Assembly: GCA_913776045.1 (NCBI GenBank)
Contig: CAJYOI010000041.1
Coordinates: forward strand, 184,474 to 248,473
Direction of reading: 5' to 3'
DNA: 64,000 nucleotides
Source of the DNA: an uncultured Sphingomonas sp.
Lineage (GTDB): Bacteria > Pseudomonadota > Alphaproteobacteria > Sphingomonadales > Sphingomonadaceae
The notes under the pieces are model-generated. The model searched no databases. It was not told the origin of the DNA and worked only from the letters and a program-made list of their open reading frames with translations. Within the stretch, counting starts at the first letter, position 1. Every line of letters starts with the position of its first letter. Shown here piece by piece: positions 23,453 to 26,120 of the stretch. The translations under genes were made by a program, and so were the position numbers.

Positions 23453-23552
23453 TCTTCGACTCCGGAAAGGCAATGGCGCGCACGCTACGCCCGTCCCCGT
23501 GCGTCCGCCAGACCCGCTTCCCAAGCATGCAACGGAACGCTACCCACAGCCC

Positions 23553-25150
<1,598 letters not shown>

Positions 25151-25154
<4 letters not shown>

Positions 25155-25636
25155 TCGAAGGGGAGGATCCACAAAATCCTCCCCAGAATGGGGAGGGGGA
25201 CCGCGCGAAGCGCGGTGGAGGGGCTGGTCATAGGCTAACCGGTCCACGCAGCACCGTACTGCGCAGCCGCCGCCTCCGCAGAGAACTTAGCCTCCCCGAA
25301 GTCATCCTCTGGCGCGCCTTGAGGACCCGCCCGAACGGTCTGAAGTTCCGCAAGCAGCACCCGGCCGGTGTCTATATTCTCGACTTCTACTGCCCCGCGG
25401 CCAAACTTGCGATCGAAGTCGATGGCGCACATCACGGGCTCGAACGGCAGGCCGTAAAAGACAGCGCCCGCGATCAATGGCTCGCGAGCTGGAACGTCCG
25501 TACACTCCGCATCCCTGCCACTGCCATCCTTGACGACGTAGCCGCCGTGGTCGCACACATCGTGGCACACGCTTCGCCCGACCAGCCCCTCCACCAGCCT
25601 GCGGCTGGTCCCCCTCCCCGTGCCGGGGAGGATTGA
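25151..25636 (+). CDS. DUF559 protein (Vsr-like nuclease fold) inside an inverted-repeat element
   Basis: Up to 161 residues in a frame that begins at a GTG overlapping the mccB stop; no ATG is available near the domain, so the start is uncertain. The DUF559 core is complete: [16 protein letters not shown] (the Glu), [19 protein letters not shown] (Asp), [10 protein letters not shown] (Glu, Asp) and a final LRIPATAIL, as in PD-(D/E)XK endonucleases related to Vsr. The first 25 and last 18 codons are translated from the flanking 55-bp inverted repeats, so the repeats are part of the gene. It splits the mccB-mccA operon. The function is unknown; a nicking or end-processing nuclease for the repeats themselves is an attractive inference. 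Confidence 0.75.
25175..25229 (+). repeat. Left 55-bp inverted repeat of the DUF559 element
   Basis: Two consecutive hairpins: CCTCCCC-agaat-GGGGAGG and CCGCGC-gaa-GCGCGG, followed by TGGAGGGGCTGGTC. It is the inverse of 25580-25634: 55 bp each, identical outside the loop of hairpin 1 and the inner part of hairpin 2. An extra upstream arm GGGGAGGAT (25160-25168) can pair with ATCCTCCCC (25176-25184), making an alternative hairpin just after the mccB stop. Confidence 0.9.
25580..25634 (-). repeat. Right 55-bp inverted repeat of the DUF559 element
   Basis: Read on the minus strand it matches the left copy: CCTCCCC-ggcac-GGGGAGG, then CCAGCC-gca-GGCTGG, then TGGAGGGGCTGGTC. The second stem differs in sequence from the left copy but is still fully paired, which means paired (compensating) substitutions. 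It encodes the C-terminal tail of the DUF559 protein and ends two bases before its stop codon is complete. Confidence 0.9.
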
Positions 25637-25646
25637 AGGAAAGATA

Positions 25647-26120
25647 ATGCTCCTCCTCGCCCTCGCCCTCCAGGTCACGCCGGCCCAGCCCCTGCCCAAG
25701 GCGGTCCCCCTGCCCCCACCCGACGCCGACACCGCCGCCGTCCTCGCCCCCATCGACCGCCTCTTCGCCGCCGTCACCGCGAAGGATCCGGCCGGCATTC
25801 TGGCGCAGGTCCGCAGCGACGGCCGCAACAGTGCGATCGTCGCGATGCCCGACGGGTCGAGCGAGATCCGCACGCGCAGCTGGGCCGATTTCGCCGGCGG
25901 CTTGAGCGACGGCCCCAGCCTGCTCCAGGAACGGCTGGTCAACCCGGTCGTCGATATCGACGGCAATCTCGCCATGGTATGGTCCAGCTACATCTTCCGC
26001 GCCGACGGCCGCGTCACCCATTGTGGCACCGACCAGTTCACGATGGTCCGCGATGCTGCGGGCTGGAAGGTGCAGCATCTGACCTACACCCAGCGCCAGA
26101 CCGACTGCCCGGCCGGCTGA
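25647..26120 (+). CDS. NTF2-like/DUF4440 exported protein
   Basis: 157-residue protein with a signal-peptide-like start (MLLLALALQVTPAQPLP) and a nuclear-transport-factor-2-like domain: IDRLFAAVTAKDPAGILAQV, then IRTRSWADFAGGL, then LAMVWSSYIFRADGRVTHCG, then TDQFTMVRDAAGWKVQHLTY. Such domains form a cone-shaped pocket used by many unrelated enzymes and binding proteins. The start at 25647 has GGAAAG seven bases upstream. It sits immediately after the DUF559 element and before mccA, within the leucine-degradation cluster; whether it is part of that pathway is unknown. Confidence 0.8.
   Translation: MLLLALALQVTPAQPLPKAVPLPPPDADTAAVLAPIDRLFAAVTAKDPAGILAQVRSDGRNSAIVAMPDGSSEIRTRSWADFAGGLSDGPSLLQERLVNPVVDIDGNLAMVWSSYIFRADGRVTHCGTDQFTMVRDAAGWKVQHLTYTQRQTDCPAG

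Follow-up and report, generated by a model that had tools for sequence, protein, structure and literature searches.

A DUF559 nuclease-like gene set between inverted cognate hairpin repeats in Sphingomonas: a probable partnership of the REP/REPIN type

Read from the sequence, the unit described here consists of a DUF559 nuclease-like gene set between inverted cognate hairpins; it mostly lies in an operon gap that is conserved and has no near-identical second copy in the same genome. From the genomic comparisons, the association of DUF559 genes with these hairpins, as well as its cognate nature, can be taken as near certain in this genus. We propose that the DUF559 nuclease probably acts on its cognate hairpins and drives a population of short dispersed hairpin pairs (REPINs), in a partnership comparable to that of the REP/REPIN systems.

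The unit was found in a 64,000-nucleotide stretch of DNA from an uncultured Sphingomonas sp. (the window, i.e. the whole stretch that was analysed). The features of the locus are the following:

23550 to 25154, + strand: mccB-type carboxyltransferase gene, upstream, left flank of the slot (TIGR01117 match below the cut-off)
25151 to 25636, + strand: DUF559 nuclease-like open reading frame (GTG start, from ORF reading; PF04480 profile match, E = 1.3e-23)
25175 to 25229, + strand: left class A repeat, two hairpins (repeat search and folding)
25178 to 25196, + strand: left hairpin 1, loop AGAAT (sequence reading and folding)
25200 to 25216, + strand: left hairpin 2, variable stem, GAA triloop (sequence reading, folding and survey of stem variants)
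25259 to 25567, + strand: DUF559 domain (profile match; 209732-210040 of contig C41 of the same genome)
25580 to 25634, − strand: right class A repeat, inverted (repeat search and folding)
25593 to 25609, − strand: right hairpin 2, variable stem, GCA triloop (sequence reading)
25613 to 25631, − strand: right hairpin 1, loop GGCAC (sequence reading and folding)
25647 to 26120, + strand: 157-residue ORF, downstream, right flank of the slot (ORF list; no NCBIfam match)

The GTG at 25151 overlaps the mccB stop and the TGA ends at 25636; the frame is open between them, so that both repeats lie inside it. The window protein matched PF04480 with 83.4 bits, the curated cut-off being 20.6, and the sequence-only reading of a DUF559 gene between the repeats, with a frame running into both of them, is thus confirmed. 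That reading had also placed the unit inside mccB-mccA. It does lie between these two genes, but not directly, since the separate ORF at 25647-26120, which we take to be NTF2-like, precedes mccA; the order along the window is mccB, DUF559 unit, 157-residue ORF and mccA. A further 9-bp inverted repeat, noticed by eye at 25160-25184 (GGGGAGGAT / ATCCTCCCC), overlaps the outer arm of the left repeat. A defence gene was considered and rejected, the PADLOC matches (DpdF and mREase_II) being partial and to larger proteins.

The repeat search recovered the two 55-nt arms, at 25175-25229 and 25580-25634, in the head-to-head orientation first read by eye and with 82% complementarity; in the whole window, only one other inverted pair of at least 30 nt was found within 2 kb (73% over 30 nt). 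As previously claimed, the two copies differ in the loop of hairpin 1 (AGAAT / GGCAC) and in the inner stem of hairpin 2 (GCGCGAAGCGC / AGCCGCAGGCT), and the difference is limited to these segments. Folding gave z-scores of -4.80 for the left copy and -4.74 for the right one, both beating 200 of 200 shuffles, and the minimum-energy fold of the right copy contains an alternative pairing across the hairpin 2 stretch (25593-25609). The class A pattern was matched twice in the window and never in 100 shuffles. The paired stems had been interpreted as paired substitutions under structural selection. The stems are indeed paired in both copies, but turnover of the whole loop/stem module is a better description: in the mccB slot of the close relative G544, whose DUF559 gene is 91% identical, the left repeat is kept and the right one is replaced by a copy with another loop and another paired stem. 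Base-by-base compensation between the window copies was abandoned on this comparison. Throughout the genome, the inner segment of hairpin 2 is present in 31 distinct versions among 38 copies, with 92% of pairing versus 39% in shuffles, and 24 of the 31 versions carry a central GNA triloop.

Such hairpins, which persist despite the change of their stems and which are located within a reading frame and between operon genes, could work at the RNA level, as terminators or sites of mRNA processing that form the regulatory ends of a small operon gene. This is very unlikely in our opinion, because the same hairpins are found genome-wide as gene-free pairs and because their GNA loops are of a type that is stable as a DNA triloop. 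Moreover, the Rfam scan of the window returned no family at gathering score, and a structured RNA was rejected on this result, the single sub-threshold match (E = 0.019) being set aside.

The PF04480 profile was present in 141 of 151 same-genus genomes. A census was carried out on 25 DUF559-bearing genomes of the genus, hand-chosen for their one to five contigs (G088 is 88% complete). They contain 116 PF04480 matches, of which 110 were analysed; the six others (G010:288055, G055:2085414, G108:2855270, G021:1832591, G010:2729902 and G026:1519409) were left out as weak matches, mostly within very long frames. With a threshold score of 40 or more, an inverted hairpin pair was detected at 98 of the 110 DUF559 loci and at none of 2000 random positions, drawn from twenty 20-kb stretches of the census genomes and mostly intragenic, so that this control is not matched to the intergenic context. 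Six of the 12 loci below the threshold scored 31-39 and six 17-24. Hairpin pairs flank DUF559 genes more often than chance, the point on which the sequence-only reading had let its proposal depend, and the census supports its central idea that the protein and its hairpin ends belong together, following the logic of REP and RAYT with a nuclease of another fold. Chance or base composition could be invoked given the high GC content of both repeats and genomes and the frequency of weak inverted matches (median score of 21 in the controls). With no random position at the threshold, and with no match to the backwards control patterns searched in the window's own genome and in the same-genus genomes, this explanation was rejected as hardly credible.

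Phylum-wide, the threshold was reached at 38 of 70 loci, in 19 of the 26 sampled families, and missed at 32; these loci comprise the 30 best matches and 40 picked for family spread, and the random control remains that of the census genomes. Among the 30 named loci of another collection, 18 reach the threshold, including loci of Sphingomonas, Sphingopyxis, Porphyrobacter, Phenylobacterium and a Caulobacteraceae bin, and 12 miss it. Several individual loci were also noted. The third DUF559 gene of the window's own genome (L003, contig C45) is devoid of class A repeats and is flanked on both sides by what appear, by eye, to be degenerate hairpins of another class. On a plasmid of Sphingobium sp. 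RAC03 (L335), thus in another genus, a DUF559 gene with class A repeats adjoins a carboxyl transferase gene, as in the window. A DUF559 gene of rhizobial type is flanked on both sides by double hairpins (L250) with a putative likeness to the RIME of rhizobia; at L291 such hairpins are found downstream only.

Seven hairpin classes were typed and several of them coexist in a single genome. In 92 of 95 loci, the best same-genome match of the left repeat was its own right repeat, against 22 expected (only genomes with more than one locus were used). When the classes were placed on a tree of 97 protein domains, 9 class changes were counted (minimum 6) versus a mean of 62.6 after shuffling, and none of 200 shuffles was as low; in this tree L166, which has no class, is omitted, and L139 and L113 were assigned to a class by eye. 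After removal of 12 residues from each domain end, which eliminates the residues encoded by the repeats, 10 changes were obtained versus 59.8 in within-genome shuffles (lowest 50). One locus typed D2 (L102) falls in the D3 clade. Much of this agreement between class and tree is shared inheritance of slots, yet classes A, B, C and D2 each span several slots.

The AlphaFold2 model of the DUF559 protein has a pLDDT of 90.1. The closest solved structures are 3hrl, I-Bth0305I and PvuRts1I, followed by mitoribosomal RAP-domain proteins and Vsr. I-Bth0305I (3r3p) was retrieved with E values of 6.6e-4 by Foldseek and 2.2e-6 by hmmsearch. It is a homing endonuclease of intron origin, belonging to the type named EDxHD after a residue motif. 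The DUF559 protein has its fold and its conserved acidic and histidine residues, as compared without residue-by-residue superposition: D50, E61, D63, H67 and D76 are among the residues invariant in 57 sequences. Unlike I-Bth0305I, which resides in an intron, the DUF559 gene is free-standing between hairpin repeats. The very-short-patch repair endonuclease Vsr (1vsr; Foldseek rank 8, E = 0.027) is related in fold, whereas the DUF559 proteins studied here are tied to repeat classes.

Related DUF559 genes occupy slots that are common to several genomes: the mccB side, pntA, glyQ-glyS, sufB-sufC, fabI-aroC and serA-hisZ. On annotated plasmids, they are also present at pntA and yqeY-dnaG. The closest of 188 within-genome DUF559 pairs is 65% identical, and dN/dS is 0.05-0.10 in four pairs. 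These data indicate that the DUF559 gene is largely vertical in fixed operon slots and under purifying selection. A freely transposing gene unit was discarded, since the genes occupy common slots across genomes. The small element proposed from the sequence alone is thereby retained for the pairing of gene and hairpins, but not as a freely hopping unit, the gene being mostly in shared operon slots. Two nuclease types occupy the sufB-sufC gap: GIY-YIG in Azospirillum (L325) and DUF559 of class D3 in G120 (L097).

The content of the mccB slot was examined in the 29 other best mccB matches: five contain DUF559, two GIY-YIG and four another sequence, 17 are empty (nothing ahead of the NTF2-like ORF or mccA) and one is cut off. 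The empty sites expected in relatives do exist, and the slot genes of the census bear hairpin pairs. In G043 the slot holds a lone short hairpin. The DUF559 genes of this slot are found in both orientations and come from several lineages, the protein of G602 being 56% identical to that of the window. DUF559 might accordingly be seen as a site-loyal selfish nuclease of the homing type, which would cleave the empty slot and be copied in by recombination; the hairpins would mark or protect the slot and the REPs would move otherwise. The similarity to I-Bth0305I, the slots shared between genomes in filled and empty states and the repeated filling of the mccB slot are in line with this scheme. We nevertheless regard it as rather unlikely, as it leaves unexplained why each lineage possesses its own hairpin class and why gene-free pairs and gene units have common inner ends (see below).

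The hairpins are also dispersed. The window's own genome contains 38 exact class A copies, which form 10 exact +/- pairs: nine are spaced by 28-47 bp and the tenth, spaced by 362 bp, is the DUF559 unit of the window. Class A copies were detected in 130 of the 151 same-genus genomes searched, with a maximum of 144 per genome. The gene-free hairpins form REPIN-like +/- pairs about 30 bp apart. The 15 bp inside the REPIN ends score 5.39 on a matrix built from the inner ends of the DUF559 units versus -0.11 for shuffled sequences (p = 2e-13; 30 and 48 ends compared). The two copies of one REPIN are often unlike, one having a short and the other a longer second hairpin, which resembles distinct left and right ends. 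Spacing provides a test of the long +/- pairs that is independent of the random-position control. Five long class A pairs were chosen by spacing alone and fetched, and all five contain DUF559. Among the matches listed, the adjacent +/- pairs within 250-700 bp number 14, including loci already known; they are spaced by 347-461 bp and all of them hold DUF559 (A 7, D2 4 and B 3).

In the 25 genomes, a class is represented by more copies where its gene is present (A, p = 0.005; D2, p = 0.014; B, p = 0.0009), also after subtraction of two copies per gene (A, p = 0.011; D2, p = 0.023; B, p = 0.005). The 10 DUF559-less genomes have 0-3 class A copies versus a median of 18 in the 141 others, 14 of which are devoid of any class A copy. 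Copies without the matching class gene are encountered in G018 (187 D2), G104 (54 D2) and G111 (67 class A). Copy number thus tracks gene presence only loosely and imperfectly. The abundance of REPs in some genomes that lack the class gene, together with the purifying selection on DUF559, would be expected of an ordinary Vsr-like host repair gene located by chance in REP-rich operon gaps, the REPs being moved by an unknown or lost enzyme. In Caulobacter, the DUF559 protein VsrA has been connected with a cytosine methyltransferase and with DNA damage (PMC12907096), which points in the same direction. Such a fortuitous location is unlikely in view of the cognate match between hairpin class and protein lineage and of the occupancy of the listed long pairs by DUF559. 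The Y1_Tnp profile, moreover, was absent in 135 of the 151 genus genomes and present in 16, and the profile search found none in the window's own genome; RAYT was rejected as the mover on this rarity, although other enzymes are possible.

Turnover of REPINs was followed between close relatives by comparing 260 kb each of G544 and G602. The G544 stretch contains five class A clusters and the G602 stretch seven, one in each being the DUF559 unit. Out of seven REPIN sites, three are shared, one is absent in the other genome, one faces another hairpin class and two face a solo hairpin. Three solo hairpins, with the form ATCCTCCCC-loop-GGGGAGGAT, lie in the two stretches (G544 C2 and G602 C1; L337-L356 and L370-L375), and at two of them the relative carries a full REPIN. 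This solo/full pattern would fit cutting or joining in the hairpin 1 loops; replication slippage across short direct repeats, which needs no enzyme, could also account for it and for the loss of REPINs. Target-site duplications, the mark of an IS or MITE, were not clearly visible in the G544/G602 comparison, the junctions being solo hairpins or ragged.

In the partnership that we favour, the DUF559 protein, with its Vsr / I-Bth0305I fold, would recognise its own hairpin as extruded or single-stranded DNA. We infer this mode of recognition from the stable GNA triloops and from the pairing that is kept while the stem sequence changes. The nuclease would cut at or close to the hairpin, and repair or replication would afterwards copy, convert or remove the short hairpin pairs. 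As has been put forward for RAYTs, the gene unit would act autonomously and give rise to the REPINs as non-autonomous derivatives, here with a hydrolytic nuclease chemistry in place of the HUH-tyrosine step.

Several features are common to REP/RAYT systems and the present one. Hairpin repeats are dispersed as +/- pairs (REPINs), and one genome may contain several cognate classes. The partner gene lies between inverted cognate repeats; it has no near-identical copies and is inherited vertically at conserved places. RAYTs are described as single-copy and vertically inherited (PMC8049555), and the RAYT features compared here are taken from PMC8049555 and PMC3733652. In contrast, the RAYT partner is a HUH-tyrosine Y1_Tnp protein and the partner here is a DUF559 nuclease; the REP-RAYT hairpin has a GTAG tetranucleotide at its foot, which by eye the window repeats do not have. 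The DUF559-hairpin system is REP-RAYT-like without being a member, because it lacks both the transposase that defines these systems and the GTAG foot.

The CGTC-tagged REPs of alphaproteobacteria are described, in a 2013 survey (PMC3733652), as dispersed palindromic elements, mostly head-to-head dimers and apparently without a dedicated transposase. According to the same survey, their stem starts with AT after an unpaired CGTC. This is not the case of class A, as judged by eye against that description, and DUF559 was dropped as the missing enzyme of the CGTC REPs on this disparity. A parallel pairing was observed in passing, that of a GIY-YIG nuclease with CGTC-type REPs. At 9 of 12 plasmid GIY-YIG loci (L323-L334), picked from 33 matching records so as to avoid near-copies, an inverted repeat pair scored 54 or more, and an exact CGTCAT repeat is present on at least one side at 7 of the 12. 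The GIY-YIG genes of the two mccB slots (L059 in G022 and L063 in G080) are flanked by inverted CGTC-type REPs. In the open-access PMC literature (without bioRxiv and with few subscription journals), searched by title and start of abstract, none of the papers listed joins DUF559 or GIY-YIG to REPs.

We tentatively extend the proposal, at slightly less than an even chance, to REPs without RAYTs in general. These would be run by homing-type nucleases, DUF559 for several classes in Pseudomonadota and GIY-YIG for the CGTC REPs, each cutting its own class and hydrolytically driving dispersal, conversion and excision to solo hairpins. The DUF559 family, still named for its unknown function, gains a testable role, and REP-type repeats without RAYTs gain a candidate partner enzyme. 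With several matched protein and hairpin classes per genome, material for exchanging specificities in the laboratory is already at hand. Should the enzyme cut its cognate hairpin, at least two unrelated enzyme chemistries would have given rise to REP-type populations.
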